From positions 1 through 18,572 of the forward strand of contig CAKPRX010000044.1 of the NCBI GenBank assembly GCA_934183135.1: a stretch of 18,572 nucleotides of DNA, in the 5' to 3' direction. Each line of letters begins with the position of its first letter. Positions within the stretch are counted from its first letter, which is position 1. The notes beneath the pieces are model-generated. The model made no database searches. It saw only the letters and a program-made list of their open reading frames with translations, and was not told where the DNA came from. The stretch comes from an uncultured Prevotella sp. (GTDB lineage Bacteria > Bacteroidota > Bacteroidia > Bacteroidales > Bacteroidaceae). Positions 1,824-18,299 of the stretch are shown here, one piece after another. Made by a program: the position numbers and the translations under genes.

Positions 1824-3695
1824 ATGGAATTTACCTACGATGTGATAGTAGTCGGAGGGGGCCACGCTGGCTGCGAAGCCGCTGCGGCGGCCGCCCGGAT
1901 GGGTGCCCGTACCTGCCTGATTACTATGGACATGAACAAGATTGGACAGATGAGTTGCAACCCGGCCATAGGCGGCATAGCCAAGGGCCAGATAGTCAGG
2001 GAGGTCGACGCCATAGGCGGCCACATGGGCCTGGTAACCGACGCCACCGCCATCCAGTTTCGCATGCTCAACCAGGGCAAGGGGCCGGCCGTATGGTCGC
2101 CCCGCGCACAGTGCGACAGAAGCAAGTATATATGGAAGTGGCGCGAGGTGCTCGACGCCACCGACAGACTGGACATCTGGCAGGACCAGGCCGACACGCT
2201 CATCGTAGAGCAGGGCGTGGCCACGGGTGTACAGACCGTGTGGGGCGTAACCTTCAGGGCCAGGGCCGTGGTCATCACGGCGGGCACGTTCCTGAACGGA
2301 CTGATGCACATAGGCCGGCACCAGTATCCCGGCGGACGGTGTGCCGAGCCGGCCGTGCCCCACCTGAGCGAGAGCATAGCCAAGCACGGCGTGCGCGTGG
2401 GCCGCATGAAGACGGGCACCCCGGTACGCATAGACCGGCGCAGCGTACACTTCGAGGATATGGAAGAGCAGCCCGGCGAGCAGACTTTCCACCAGTTTAG
2501 CTACATGGGTACCCACCGCCAGCTGCGCCAGCTGCCCTGCTGGACCTGTTACACCAACCGCGAGGCCCACGACGTACTGCGCAGCGGCCTGGCCGACTCG
2601 CCGCTCTTCAACGGGCAGATACAGAGCACCGGCCCACGCTACTGCCCTTCTATCGAGACCAAGCTCGTCACCTTTCCGGGCAAAGACCAGCACCCCCTCT
2701 TCCTTGAGCCCGAGGGCGACAACACCAACGAAATGTATCTTAACGGCTTCTCGTCCAGTATGCCCATTGACATACAGATAGAGGCCATACACCGCATCCC
2801 GGCACTGCGCGACGCGCGTTTCTACCGTCCGGGCTACGCCATAGAGTACGACTACTTTGACCCCACCCAACTTTCGCACTCGTTAGAGTCCAAGGTGATA
2901 GACGGCCTGTTCCTGGCCGGACAGGTCAACGGCACCACGGGCTACGAGGAGGCCGCCGCCCAGGGGCTGGTGGCCGGCATCAACGCTGCGCTGAAGTGCA
3001 GCGGAGGCGAGCCGTGGGTGATGAAGCGCGACGAGAGCTACATCGGCGTGCTCATAGACGACCTTACCACCAAGGGGGTCGACGAGCCTTACCGCATGTT
3101 TACCTCGCGGGCCGAGTACCGCATCCTGCTGCGGCAGGACGATGCCGACGCGCGGCTCACCGAGCGTGCCTACCAGCTGGGCGTGGCCTCGCGCGAGCGC
3201 TACGACTGGTGGCTGCAGAAGAGAGAGGGCATCGGGCTACTGCTGGACTACTGCGACAACACACCCGTCCATCCGCGCGACATCAACGGCTACCTGGAAC
3301 ACCTGGGCACCACTCCCCTACGCTTTGGCTGTAAGGTGAGCGACCTGATAGAACGCCCGCAGATAGGCATAGGCCAACTGGCCGAGGCGCTGCCACAGCT
3401 GCGCGCCCTGATAGAGGGCCTGCCCAACCGGCAGGAGGAGATAACCGAGGCGGCCGAAATCAAGATTAAGTACAAGGGCTACATAGAGCGCGAGCGGCTG
3501 ATAGCCGACAAGATGCACCGGCTGGAAGACATAAGGATAAAGGGACGCTTTGACTACAGCCAGCTGCACGAGATTTCGACCGAGGGCCGCCAGAAGCTCA
3601 CCAAGATCAACCCCGAGACACTGGCACAGGCCAGCCGTATTCCAGGCGTGTCGCCCAGCGACATCAATGTGTTACTGGTACTTATGGGGAGATAG
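1824..3695 (+). CDS. mnmG: tRNA uridine-5-carboxymethylaminomethyl modification enzyme MnmG (GidA)
   Basis: FAD-dependent partner of MnmE in the cytoplasmic modification of wobble uridine-34 of certain tRNAs. At 623 aa it is full length for the family. The FAD-binding motif VVGGGHAGCEAA is at residues 9-20. SCNPAIGGIAKG contains the conserved Cys45, and PRYCPSIE contains Cys274, equivalent to the second catalytic cysteine of E. coli MnmG. A second dinucleotide-binding segment, LAGQVNGTTGYEEAAAQG, is near residues 364-381. FTSRAEYR and the C-terminal MnmE-interaction region are also present. The start is supported by the -7 box 20 bp upstream. It probably heads an mnmG-apt(-uvrC) transcription unit. 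The last base of its TAG stop codon is the first base of a parS-type palindrome. MnmG (GidA) genes lie near the replication origin in many bacteria. Confidence 0.97.
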   Translation: MEFTYDVIVVGGGHAGCEAAAAAARMGARTCLITMDMNKIGQMSCNPAIGGIAKGQIVREVDAIGGHMGLVTDATAIQFRMLNQGKGPAVWSPRAQCDRSKYIWKWREVLDATDRLDIWQDQADTLIVEQGVATGVQTVWGVTFRARAVVITAGTFLNGLMHIGRHQYPGGRCAEPAVPHLSESIAKHGVRVGRMKTGTPVRIDRRSVHFEDMEEQPGEQTFHQFSYMGTHRQLRQLPCWTCYTNREAHDVLRSGLADSPLFNGQIQSTGPRYCPSIETKLVTFPGKDQHPLFLEPEGDNTNEMYLNGFSSSMPIDIQIEAIHRIPALRDARFYRPGYAIEYDYFDPTQLSHSLESKVIDGLFLAGQVNGTTGYEEAAAQGLVAGINAALKCSGGEPWVMKRDESYIGVLIDDLTTKGVDEPYRMFTSRAEYRILLRQDDADARLTERAYQLGVASRERYDWWLQKREGIGLLLDYCDNTPVHPRDINGYLEHLGTTPLRFGCKVSDLIERPQIGIGQLAEALPQLRALIEGLPNRQEEITEAAEIKIKYKGYIERERLIADKMHRLEDIRIKGRFDYSQLHEISTEGRQKLTKINPETLAQASRIPGVSPSDINVLLVLMGR

Positions 3696-3708
3696 TTTCA
3701 CGTGAAAC
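3695..3708. promoter_or_regulatory. parS: parS-type ParB-binding site, copy 1
   Basis: GTTTCACGTGAAAC is a perfect 14-bp palindrome identical to the core of the widely conserved bacterial parS site (consensus TGTTTCACGTGAAACA). The flanks here are A and C, so it matches 14 of 16 consensus positions. It overlaps the last base of the mnmG stop codon. parS sites are bound by ParB and seed the chromosome segregation complex, usually near the origin. No parA or parB gene is in the window; the assignment rests on sequence identity and on the second copy 671 bp away. Confidence 0.85.
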
Positions 3709-3741
3709 CGAACGATAACAACGATAAAATCAATTATAATT

Positions 3742-4272
3742 ATGAACAACGAAGTACTAATTAAAAATCTGCGATGCATCCCCGACTGGCCGATTAAAGG
3801 CGTCAATTTCCGGGATGTCACCACCCTATTCAAGAGTGCCGAGTGCCTGCGCATCATAACCGACGAGATGTGCGAGCTGTACAAGGACAAAGGTATAACC
3901 AAGATAGTGGGCATCGAAAGCCGTGGCTTTGTGATGTCATCGGCCGTGGCCCTGCGTCTCAATGCCGGCATCGTACTCTGCCGGAAGCCTGGCAAACTGC
4001 CCTGTGAGACCGTTCAGGAAAGTTATGCCAAAGAATACGGCATCGATACCATCGAGATACACAAGGATGCCATCAACGAAAACGACGTGGTACTGCTGCA
4101 CGACGACCTGTTGGCCACGGGCGGCACCATGAAGGCTGCGTGCGACCTGGTAAAGAAGTTCCACCCCAAGCGCGTGTACTGCAACTTTATCATCGAGCTC
4201 GTCAACGAGGGTCTTAACGGTCGCGCCGCCTTTGACGACGACATAGAGATAACCTCGCTCATACAGATATAA
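3742..4272 (+). CDS. apt: Adenine phosphoribosyltransferase
   Basis: Cytoplasmic purine-salvage enzyme that makes AMP and pyrophosphate from adenine and PRPP. At 176 aa it has the usual length. The PRPP-binding loop VVLLHDDLLATGGT is at residues 116-129 with the invariant acidic pair and TGGT turn. IVGIESRGFVMSSAVA (55-70) and RKPGKLP (81-87) are the family's other conserved elements. The N-terminal IPDWPIKGVNFRD is also typical of Apt. The start ATG at 3742 follows mnmG by 46 bp, and a parS-type palindrome occupies the beginning of that gap. No separate promoter is evident, so it is probably transcribed with mnmG. A 13-bp-stem hairpin follows the gene. Confidence 0.96.
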   Translation: MNNEVLIKNLRCIPDWPIKGVNFRDVTTLFKSAECLRIITDEMCELYKDKGITKIVGIESRGFVMSSAVALRLNAGIVLCRKPGKLPCETVQESYAKEYGIDTIEIHKDAINENDVVLLHDDLLATGGTMKAACDLVKKFHPKRVYCNFIIELVNEGLNGRAAFDDDIEITSLIQI

Positions 4273-4274
4273 AC

Positions 4275-4340
4275 ACGCAGACCGCTGCGTACACTTTATG
4301 GATAGGGGCTGGGATGCGCGTAGACGCCCCAGCCCCTATC
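4275..4340 (+). terminator. Two consecutive hairpins after apt (probable terminator or attenuator)
   Basis: A small stem, ACGCAG (4275-4280) with CTGCGT (4285-4290) and a 4-nt loop, is followed by a strong perfect 13-bp GC-rich stem: GATAGGGGCTGGG (4301-4313) with its complement at 4328-4340 and a 14-nt loop. There is no T-tract after it, so it is not a textbook intrinsic terminator. It could stop or pause apt transcription, or protect the 3' end. Confidence 0.5.
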
Positions 4341-4359
4341 GCTGTTACTGCGGGAAACA

Positions 4360-4385
4360 CTTAAAGTTTCACGTGAAACTTTAAG
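4360..4385. promoter_or_regulatory. parS: parS-type ParB-binding site, copy 2, inside a 26-bp perfect palindrome
   Basis: The core GTTTCACGTGAAAC at 4366-4379 is identical to copy 1. Complementarity continues outward by six bases on each side (CTTAAA left, TTTAAG right), making a perfect 26-bp palindrome centred between 4372 and 4373. It lies in the apt-uvrC gap, 33 bp before the uvrC start. The core matches parS; the extended arms are unusual and go beyond what ParB is known to need. Confidence 0.86.
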
Positions 4386-4418: not shown

Positions 4419-6284
4419 ATGACCAAAGACAACCAGGAGCGAATAGCAAGGCTCAAGAACATAGTGCTGAATATGCCGGAGAAACCCGGGAGCTACCAGT
4501 TCTATGACAAGGACCACACCATCATCTACGTGGGCAAGGCCAAGCGGCTAAAGAGCCGTGTGTCGTCGTACTTCCATACCGAGGTAGACCGGTTCAAGAC
4601 CAAGGTGCTCGTATCTAAAATCTGCGACATCAGCTATACCGTCGTCAACACCGAGGAAGACGCCCTGCTGTTAGAAAACAGTCTTATCAAGAAGTACAAC
4701 CCCCGTTACAACGTACTGCTCAAGGACGGCAAGACCTACCCCAGCATCTGCATCACCAAGGACTACCTGCCCCGCATCTTCAAGACACGCACCATTAACC
4801 GCCGTGGGGGCACCTACTACGGCCCCTACAGCCACATCAGCAGTATGTACAACATCCTGGAGCTTATAGGCAAGGTGTACAAGCCCCGCAAGTGTCACCA
4901 GCCCATTACGCGCGAGGGTATAGCCTGTGGCAAGTACAAGGCGTGCCTGGAGTACCACATACACAACTGCTACGGCCCCTGCATAGGCCGCCAGAGCTAC
5001 GACGACTACATGGAGAACATACGCCAGGCCCGCGAGATACTCAAGGGCAACACCCGCGAGCTCAGCGAGCTGCTGTACAAGCAGATGCAGGCGCTGGCCG
5101 AGCAGCTGCAGTTCGAGCGGGCCGAGGTCATCAAGCAGCGCTACCTGCTCCTGCAGAACTTTGTGAGCCGCAGCGAGGTGGTAAGCCATACCATTACCGA
5201 TGTAGACGTGTTCAGCATCACCGACGACGAGGCCAACCACAACGCCTACATTAACTATATACACGTCAAGAACGGCACCGTCAACCAGAGTTTTACCTTC
5301 GAGTACCACCGCAAGCTCGACGAGACCGATGCCGACCTGCTCCTCGCGGCCATTCCCGAGATCAGGGAGCGTTTCGGCAGTTCCGCCCGCGAGATCATAG
5401 TGCCCTTCGAGCTCGAGTGGACGCTCCGCGACACCACCTTTACCGTCCCGCAGCGTGGCGACAAGCGCCACCTGCTCGAACTGTCTGAGATGAACAGTCG
5501 CCAGTACAAGTTTGACCGCCTGAAGCAGGCCGAGAAACTCAATCCGGAGCAGAAACAGACACGGCTGATGAAAGAGCTGCAGCAGAAGTTGCACCTGGAG
5601 CGCCTGCCCTATCAGATAGAGTGTTTTGACAACTCCAACATCTCGGGTACCGACGCCGTGGCGGGCTGCGTGGTGTTCAAGGGCATGAAGCCCAGCAAGA
5701 AAGACTACCGCAAGTACACCATCAGAACCGTGGAGGGCCCTGACGACTACGCCTCGATGCAGGAGGTGGTACGGCGGCGTTACTCGCGCATGACCGAGGA
5801 GGGGGCCACCCTGCCCGACCTTATCATTACCGATGGCGGCAAGGGCCAGATGGACGTGGTAAGCGCCGTGGTACATGGCGAGCTGGGCCTGAGCATACCC
5901 GTGGCCGGCCTGGCCAAGGACGACCGCCACCGCACCAACGAGCTGCTCTATGGCGACCCCATCCGCACTATAGGCCTCGACGTCAAAGGCGAGCTCTTCC
6001 ACGCCCTCACACGCATCCAGGACGAGGTTCACCGCTACGCCATCACCTTCCACCGCGACAAGCGGTCCAAGCATGCCCTGCACAGCGAGCTCGACGACAT
6101 ACGCGGCATAGGGCCTAAGTCCAAGGAGGCGCTGTTGGCCCAGCTGAAGACGGTAAAGGCTATCAAAGCAGCTGACATACAGACACTTGCAACAGCCATA
6201 GGCGCGGCCAAGGCGCGGGTGGTCTATCAGCATTTCCACCCCGGGGACAAGGCCGACGGGGCCAGCGCCCAGCCCACTCTGTAG
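4419..6284 (+). CDS. uvrC: Excinuclease ABC subunit C
   Basis: Nuclease subunit of UvrABC nucleotide excision repair, which cuts damaged DNA on both sides of the lesion. It is full length at 621 aa. The GIY-YIG nuclease domain (about 20-100) shows GSYQF, IIYVGKA and Glu86 in LLLENSLIK. Cysteines 159, 176, 184 and 188 (the last three spaced C-x7-C-x3-C) match the four-cysteine cluster of E. coli UvrC reported to hold an iron-sulfur centre. The UVR (UvrB-binding) motif is near 219-245. The RNase H-like second nuclease domain has ECFDNSN (Asp404), IITDGGKGQ (Asp472) and DEVHRY (His538). A tandem helix-hairpin-helix region lies at about 558-606. The start MTKDNQER is the only suitable ATG ahead of the GIY-YIG domain. 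It is followed by 880 bp of non-coding DNA. Confidence 0.97.
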   Translation: MTKDNQERIARLKNIVLNMPEKPGSYQFYDKDHTIIYVGKAKRLKSRVSSYFHTEVDRFKTKVLVSKICDISYTVVNTEEDALLLENSLIKKYNPRYNVLLKDGKTYPSICITKDYLPRIFKTRTINRRGGTYYGPYSHISSMYNILELIGKVYKPRKCHQPITREGIACGKYKACLEYHIHNCYGPCIGRQSYDDYMENIRQAREILKGNTRELSELLYKQMQALAEQLQFERAEVIKQRYLLLQNFVSRSEVVSHTITDVDVFSITDDEANHNAYINYIHVKNGTVNQSFTFEYHRKLDETDADLLLAAIPEIRERFGSSAREIIVPFELEWTLRDTTFTVPQRGDKRHLLELSEMNSRQYKFDRLKQAEKLNPEQKQTRLMKELQQKLHLERLPYQIECFDNSNISGTDAVAGCVVFKGMKPSKKDYRKYTIRTVEGPDDYASMQEVVRRRYSRMTEEGATLPDLIITDGGKGQMDVVSAVVHGELGLSIPVAGLAKDDRHRTNELLYGDPIRTIGLDVKGELFHALTRIQDEVHRYAITFHRDKRSKHALHSELDDIRGIGPKSKEALLAQLKTVKAIKAADIQTLATAIGAAKARVVYQHFHPGDKADGASAQPTL

Positions 6285-17648: not shown

Positions 17649-18299
17649 ATGAAGAGCGTGTATTTTGTCATAATAGCGGCCCTGTCCCTGATGGTCGCCC
17701 TGCCTGCCGGGGCACAGACTGTACGACCCCAGACCGTGAATCCAGAGGACCGAGAGGTAGACATGGAGAACCCCACCTTTGTGCCTATGGTCAAGGTGGG
17801 CAAGGTACTGCTGGGGCGCGACTCCATCCAGTACGTAGAGCTCAACAACATCTATGTGTACCCCAAGCCCGTGTTCCAGGATGCCCGCCAGATGCAGGCT
17901 TACAACCGCCTGGTGTATAATGTCAAGAAGGTGCTCCCTATCGCTAAGGAGTGCCGCGCTATCATTATCGAAACCTACGATTACTTGCAGACCCTGCCCA
18001 ACAAAGAGGCTCGCGACCGCCACCTGAAGCTCGTCGAGAAGGGCATTAAGACCGAGTACACGCCCCGCATGAAGAAACTCACTTACCAACAGGGCAAGCT
18101 GCTCATCAAACTTATCTACCGCGAGTGCAACTCGTCTTCGTACAATCTTATCCAGTCCTTCTTCGGACCTACCCGTGCTGGCGTCTATCAGGCTTTTGCC
18201 TGGCTCTTCGGTGCCAGCCTCCGCAAGGGTTACGACCCTAACGGCGTGGACCGTATAACCGAGCGCGTGGTGCGCCAGGTAGAGAGCGGGCAGCTCTGA
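17649..18299 (+). CDS. Secreted DUF4294-like protein
   Basis: 216 aa. MKSVYFVIIAALSLMVALPAGAQ is a signal peptide (probable cut after AGA, about residue 22), so the protein is periplasmic or surface-exposed. The mature part resembles the DUF4294 family, which I know from Bacteroidetes and whose function is unknown: ELNNIYVYPKPVF, RLVYNVKKVLPIAK (87-100), LTYQQGKLLIKLIYRECN (144-161) and a C-terminal FAWLFGASLRKGYDP segment. The family assignment is from memory of these motifs, not a search. No membrane segment is seen after the signal peptide and there is no lipobox Cys. It is divergent from the HhH-barrel gene with a matching -7 box; the pair may be expressed together. The start is supported by the signal peptide, although the promoter is unusually close. 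Confidence 0.85.
   Translation: MKSVYFVIIAALSLMVALPAGAQTVRPQTVNPEDREVDMENPTFVPMVKVGKVLLGRDSIQYVELNNIYVYPKPVFQDARQMQAYNRLVYNVKKVLPIAKECRAIIIETYDYLQTLPNKEARDRHLKLVEKGIKTEYTPRMKKLTYQQGKLLIKLIYRECNSSSYNLIQSFFGPTRAGVYQAFAWLFGASLRKGYDPNGVDRITERVVRQVESGQL

Follow-up and report, generated by a model that had tools for sequence, protein, structure and literature searches.

Two copies of a 14-bp palindrome that flank apt in an uncultured Prevotella are, judged from sequence comparison, very probably chromosomal parS sites, forming a minimal, origin-proximal pair beside mnmG that would act as the centromere, with parAB and dnaA located elsewhere. The core of both sites is identical to parS, conserved across relatives and nearly absent from the remainder of their genomes. 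These relatives also encode a ParB with ParB-type residues, and in two of them the pair lies near the GC-skew minimum.

The window, that is, the whole stretch of DNA analysed here, comprises 18,572 nucleotides. Site A (GTTTCACGTGAAAC, 3695..3708) lies in the gap between mnmG (gidA; 1824..3695, plus strand) and apt (3742..4272, plus strand), while site B (again GTTTCACGTGAAAC, 4366..4379) lies between apt and the next gene, uvrC (4419..6284, plus strand); both are exact copies of the core, and neither is assigned to a strand. The gene names given by an earlier sequence-only reading of this DNA were borne out by NCBIfam models over their cut-offs (TIGR00136 for mnmG, NF002636 and TIGR01090 for apt, and TIGR00194 for uvrC). 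Site A begins within mnmG, on the G that ends its TAG stop codon, and site B forms the middle of a perfect 26-bp palindrome (CTTAAAGTTTCACGTGAAACTTTAAG, 4360..4385, no strand assigned), the end of which is the coordinate 4385 reported by that reading, 6 bases beyond the second core. Its statement that the 14-mer occurs twice, 671 bp apart and with no other copy in the window, was likewise confirmed: the start-to-start distance is 671 bp, and on both strands no further copy was found at up to three mismatches. The exact copies expected from the base composition of the window number 4.2e-5, in agreement with the claim that such a 14-mer is not expected even once by chance. At up to three mismatches, two matches alone are unremarkable (12 of 200 shuffles), and the weight therefore rests on the exactness of the sites and on their conservation elsewhere. 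The further claim, that this is the exact core of a conserved ParB site, also holds, as the 14-mer is identical to the chromosomal parS consensus, TGTTTCACGTGAAACA, which the available part of PMC7022226 gives together with variants for B. subtilis, M. smegmatis, C. crescentus and others. The window yielded neither a tRNA nor, at gathering cut-offs, any Rfam family. A perfect 12-bp inverted repeat (ATAGGGGCTGGG / CCCAGCCCCTAT, 4302-4339) with no T run behind it was seen by eye in the gap that separates apt from site B; the repeat is perhaps the apt terminator.

The same gaps were then compared among relatives, as had been suggested for related Bacteroidales. The relatives, the best 80 of 158 Apt-matching loci from an Apt search of genome contigs, are labelled as Prevotella or a genus split off from it, as Prevotellaceae or, in one case, as 'Bacteroidales bacterium'; together with the window they make 81 sequences. 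The closest among these best 80 of 158 (L001) encodes an Apt 98% identical to that of the window. All 80 loci share the co-directional gene order mnmG-apt-uvrC. Site A was recovered from 78 of the 81 sequences, in 48 as the exact core and in 30 with a single mismatch; site B was recovered from all 81, in 49 exactly, in 25 with one mismatch and in 7 with two. Three sequences (L014, L036 and L080) lack site A; over the 700 bp that precede apt, their closest 14-mers differ from the core at 5 or 6 positions. Across the 81 sequences, the core columns are nearly invariant against variable flanks, and the sites are under purifying selection; retention of both in 78 of 81 sequences means that selection acts on no fewer than two copies in Prevotellaceae. 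The spacing between them ranges from 576 to 1488 bp, with a median of 683 bp in the 78 sequences that have both. Their distances to apt vary as well, site A starting 36 to 553 bp ahead of the matched apt start and site B lying 3 to 894 bp past its matched end (+5 in L066). Among the site variants, a change at position 4 (GTTCC) is permitted by consensuses tabulated in the available part of PMC7022226. A change of the central CACGTG to CACATG (or its complement) was observed in both sites of L006, L010, L049, L059, L071 and L073. This change tends to co-occur, with 6 sequences altered in both sites, 4 in one only and 68 in neither (Fisher p 2e-6, kinship uncontrolled), and reflects either concerted change or shared ancestry.

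Beyond the family, the sites remain linked to mnmG, the gene that usually adjoins them wherever in the phylum loci were read. At the order level and with at most one mismatch, 55 of 79 genomes were positive and 24 had no match, and the 100 copies found compare with 39 for a reversed control pattern, so that part of these matches is due to chance. Among the order-level loci read, mnmG stands beside the site in 21 of 30, comprising 13 of 14 with the exact core and 8 of 16 with one mismatch; the exact-core exception (L168), which lies outside the family, lacks mnmG for at least 1.5 kb on either side. At the phylum level, the exact core occurs in 106 of 148 genomes, in 193 copies (one in 43 genomes, two in 55 and more in 8), and is absent from 42, as compared with 3 copies in 3 genomes for the reversed control. 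In all 29 newly read phylum loci with an exact site, mnmG was found within 1.5 kb on each side; overall, it lies beside the exact site in 42 of 43 loci, S. baroniae included and counted once, the loci read being those picked by the search program. At least 24 genomes carry two exact sites 1896-1932 bp apart, approximately the length of mnmG, and in all 12 of these wide-pair genomes for which a locus was read, mnmG begins or ends near one of the sites. Such pairs therefore most likely bracket mnmG. Many loci read outside the family (3-kb locus) have mnmG and no apt near the site.

These patterns bear on the bracket that the pair forms around apt in Prevotellaceae. We lean towards regarding this bracket as an accident of gene order around true parS sites, in which an ancestral site at mnmG was joined by a second, drifted one and the bracket itself is functionless. 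The spacing of one mnmG length in at least 24 other Bacteroidota genomes, the single exact site in 43 of 148 phylum genomes and the missing site A in 3 of 81 sequences all favour such an accident, against which stands the retention of two sites in 78 of 81 Prevotellaceae sequences. It is compatible with the parS explanation and refines it. A good deal less probable, in our estimate, is that function resides in the bracket as such: a parS pair round a single housekeeping gene, which is mnmG for some Bacteroidota and apt for Prevotellaceae, would serve as a condensin-independent centromere, and ParB clamps entering at either end would fill the gene between the sites and might couple its expression to segregation. 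Here, mnmG, dnaA, parAB and parS would have formed an ancestral origin cluster, and the mnmG address would be a relic of it, left behind by dnaA and parAB.

Whole genomes of 58 of the 80 relatives were scanned at up to one mismatch, in a first set of 8, in which S. baroniae B14 is represented by a complete chromosome 1, and a second set of 50. The pair and nothing else was found in all 8 of the first set and in 35 of the 50, and thus in 43 of 58. Two matches were present in 36 of the 50 (in one of these, the two are not the pair), and the remaining 14 deviate, with 0, 1, 3, 4 or 6 matches. The 50 genomes contain 112 matches, 93 at the apt locus and 19 off-locus; as the reversed control pattern gave 25, the off-locus matches are at background level, and the 14-mer is not scattered genome-wide. 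The genome of L014 has no match at one mismatch, and G119 has two pairs and two ParBs; some of the deviating genomes, G119 for example, may be mixed bins. In the S. baroniae B14 assembly (G001), the approximately 1.1 Mb outside contig C1, with C2, hold neither a parS-like site at up to one mismatch nor a ParB over cut-off.

This distribution also bears on whether the palindromes might be operators of a transcription factor controlling apt or uvrC, for instance in purine salvage, rather than parS. Palindromes centred on CACGTG are a common operator shape, and both sites occupy the gaps flanking apt. However, their distances to apt vary widely, off-locus matches at the control level leave no regulon, and many loci outside the family have mnmG and no apt beside the site. 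Together with the identity of the sequence to parS and the origin-proximal position in two relatives described below, these observations make an operator very improbable.

Over the TIGR00180 cut-off, ParB was found in 8 of 8 and 49 of 50 relatives (57 of 58); the relatives are thus not genomes without ParB, the one exception by this search being G090 (2.1 Mb). Most of the genomes scanned have a single ParB over cut-off, and in all eight parB loci read (L081-L088) a ParA-like ORF precedes parB, as recognised by eye from its KGGVGKTT motif. With residues numbered as in C. crescentus ParB and counted from the GKSR motif, R173 and G201 are present in all 38 ParBs read, out of 57 genomes (35 by script and three, L215, L216 and L224, by eye), and the Q173 and R201 of Noc in none of them; the ParB of L215 has K at 172, and those of L216 and L224 have S at 170. 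By sequence, the PDB relatives of the Prevotellaceae ParB include Spo0J, ParB, Noc and KorB, and it matches PDB Noc chains nearly as well as ParB chains. Noc being related to ParB, a ParB paralogue acting in nucleoid occlusion might instead bind the sites, which would then be of the Noc type; this is nonetheless hardly credible, as Noc sites are spread widely over genomes where here there is one pair, most genomes have a single ParB, and both the residues and the bases of the sites are of the ParB type. According to the available part of PMC7383237, R173/G201 distinguishes ParB from Noc with Q173/R201, and parS differs from the Noc-binding site (NBS) at two bases, parS having G1 and A6, which the window sites carry. 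Like the NBS of Firmicutes, which are palindromes bound by a ParB-family CTPase, the sites are palindromes that such a protein would bind, but they differ in the diagnostic bases and in the residues of the protein.

The same eight relatives were searched for the condensin partners of parS. ScpB (TIGR00281) was found in none of the eight and SMC (TIGR02168) over cut-off in none, with weak partial matches of at most 58 bits (cut-off 567) in all eight; in named control genomes, the ScpB and SMC models were over cut-off in 9 and 10 of 14, respectively. The Smc-ScpAB that characterises the SMC-loading type of parS, as in B. subtilis, was thus not detected in these eight relatives.

The position of the pair relative to the origin was assessed by GC skew, sampled in 20-kb stretches (45 of S. 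baroniae chromosome 1 and 35 of H. marshii). In S. baroniae the signal is strong, the cumulative minimum at 2.10 Mb lying about 16 kb from the pair (2.083-2.084 Mb), while in H. marshii the minimum at 1.825 Mb lies about 29 kb from the pair (1.795-1.796 Mb), with a weak skew whose detrended lows are nearly equal between 1.54 and 1.87 Mb. The detrended maxima, at 0.854 Mb and 0.505 Mb, respectively, are approximately half a chromosome away. By skew, the locus is accordingly near the origin rather than the terminus, a placement that is clear in S. baroniae and weak in H. marshii, and a third chromosome is ambiguous: in H. multisaccharivorax the skew switches sign at 540-620 kb, beside parS at 520 kb, yet the raw cumulative minimum falls at about 2.9 Mb, and its skew was dropped as support for the origin. 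In a Bacteroidota genome sampled coarsely (G201, 20 samples of 4 kb from a 3.47-Mb contig of about 3.5 Mb), the raw minimum of about 2.57 Mb compares with parS at 2.567 Mb, and detrending shifts the minimum to 2.73 Mb. As for other landmarks, dnaA lies 341 and 937 kb from parS in S. baroniae and H. marshii, and parB 578 and 735 kb, in keeping with the earlier supposition that parAB are elsewhere. It is notable that parS keeps a fixed address at mnmG although dnaA and parAB are located elsewhere. Skew at fourfold sites was rejected as an origin signal, being confounded by the coding strand. Closer in, at distances of up to 8 kb from apt, the GC skew does not switch, rising downstream in 26 of 64 loci, as would be expected if oriC is further out, leaving both sides in one replichore.

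Candidates for oriC were sought by scanning for matches to the DnaA-box consensus; in both chromosomes, the scan covered the sampled sequence only, with denser sampling near parS. The densest cluster in the H. marshii samples, at 1,819,475, packs 11 boxes into 400 bp when one mismatch is allowed, and that in S. baroniae, at 2,108,873, has 5 boxes upstream of nadA; they lie 23 kb and 24 kb, respectively, from site B on the uvrC side. Other clusters exist, one of 7 boxes at 6.9 kb and one of 5 boxes at 1.98 Mb in H. marshii and, as the best of G008, one of 6 inexact boxes 82 kb from parS; the oriC candidates are therefore provisional. The gene nadA was found in 27 of 40 genomes, and at least 5 boxes in 400 bp occur at 14 of 28 nadA loci, whereas none of the 81 apt loci (1.23 Mb) has more than 3. 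With only half of the nadA loci box-rich and 13 of 40 genomes without nadA, it was rejected as a universal neighbour of oriC. Among the matches listed, nadA shares the parS contig in 12 genomes, in 11 of which it lies at 18-122 kb, always on the uvrC side, and 10 of these 11 near loci carry at least 5 boxes; in the twelfth (G004), it is 2.0 Mb from parS on the same contig and has no boxes. In the nearest relative (G006), a 5-box cluster at nadA is on another contig than parS. A DnaA-box peak just upstream of mnmG was also dismissed as oriC on the reading of the window, the nearest box there, TTAACCACA at 1591, being read as coding because it is the complement of the sdhC gene start. It was observed by eye that the H. 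marshii 11-box cluster (L129:19475-19750 with L302; G003, 1.8195 Mb) adjoins mobile-looking genes, mobilisation- and DNA methyltransferase-like, and this cluster is possibly oriC next to an insertion. A window gene without an NCBIfam match (17649-18299) has a product resembled, by eye, by a protein about 5 kb beyond the H. marshii oriC candidate (L302 4841-5578); the stretch between parS and oriC thus seems rearranged among species. Provisionally, oriC is probably outside the mnmG-apt-uvrC block, some 18-122 kb off on the uvrC side, and the window is probably near oriC without containing it. The suggestion that mnmG-apt-uvrC is the chromosome segregation centre is hence supported as to an origin-proximal parS in relatives and refined as to oriC itself, while a segregation centre at this block would follow if the sites function as predicted.

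Compared with known ParABS systems, the window has the same 14-bp core, in relatives likewise origin-proximal and accompanied by a chromosomal ParB with ParB-type residues and a ParA-like neighbour. It differs in that sites of this type are found at mnmG-apt-uvrC and not beside parAB or dnaA, mostly as exactly two, and in that the eight relatives have no ScpB and no SMC over cut-off. The closest parallel is the OMM12 gut consortium, for whose 12 genomes the available part of PMC10197239, using a parS consensus of the GTTTCACGTGAAAC type, describes parS as clustering mostly near ori, ori as sometimes lying away from dnaA, and B. caecimuris as having no condensin homologue. The relatives resemble that consortium, which includes the gut Bacteroidota B. 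caecimuris and M. intestinale, in near-ori parS and in an ori apart from dnaA, and B. caecimuris in that no Smc-ScpAB was detected, whereas that part of the paper names no gene address, mnmG linkage or pair, and its 12 species do not include Prevotella. In the titles and abstract openings of the literature searched, a linkage of parS to mnmG in Bacteroidota is not described. On these comparisons of sequence, the sites are almost certainly genuine, origin-proximal parS of a known type; what goes beyond the routine is that they form a conserved pair with an address at mnmG and that no Smc-ScpAB was detected in the eight relatives searched.

If the genome of the window behaves as those of its relatives do, ParB dimers would nucleate on both palindromes, load as CTP-bound sliding clamps and spread over mnmG-apt-uvrC, and the resulting partition complex would be moved by ParA such that the origin region segregates first. 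The centromere of this lineage would then consist of two sites 0.6-1.5 kb apart, next to mnmG and close to the origin. The likely segregation locus of Prevotellaceae thereby gains a gene address, mnmG-apt-uvrC, which provides an origin landmark where dnaA misleads (0.34 and 0.94 Mb from parS in two chromosomes) and would be useful for growth-rate estimates from metagenomes. In a family with a putative two-site ParABS centromere and no detected Smc-ScpAB, the mode of action of such a centromere becomes testable.
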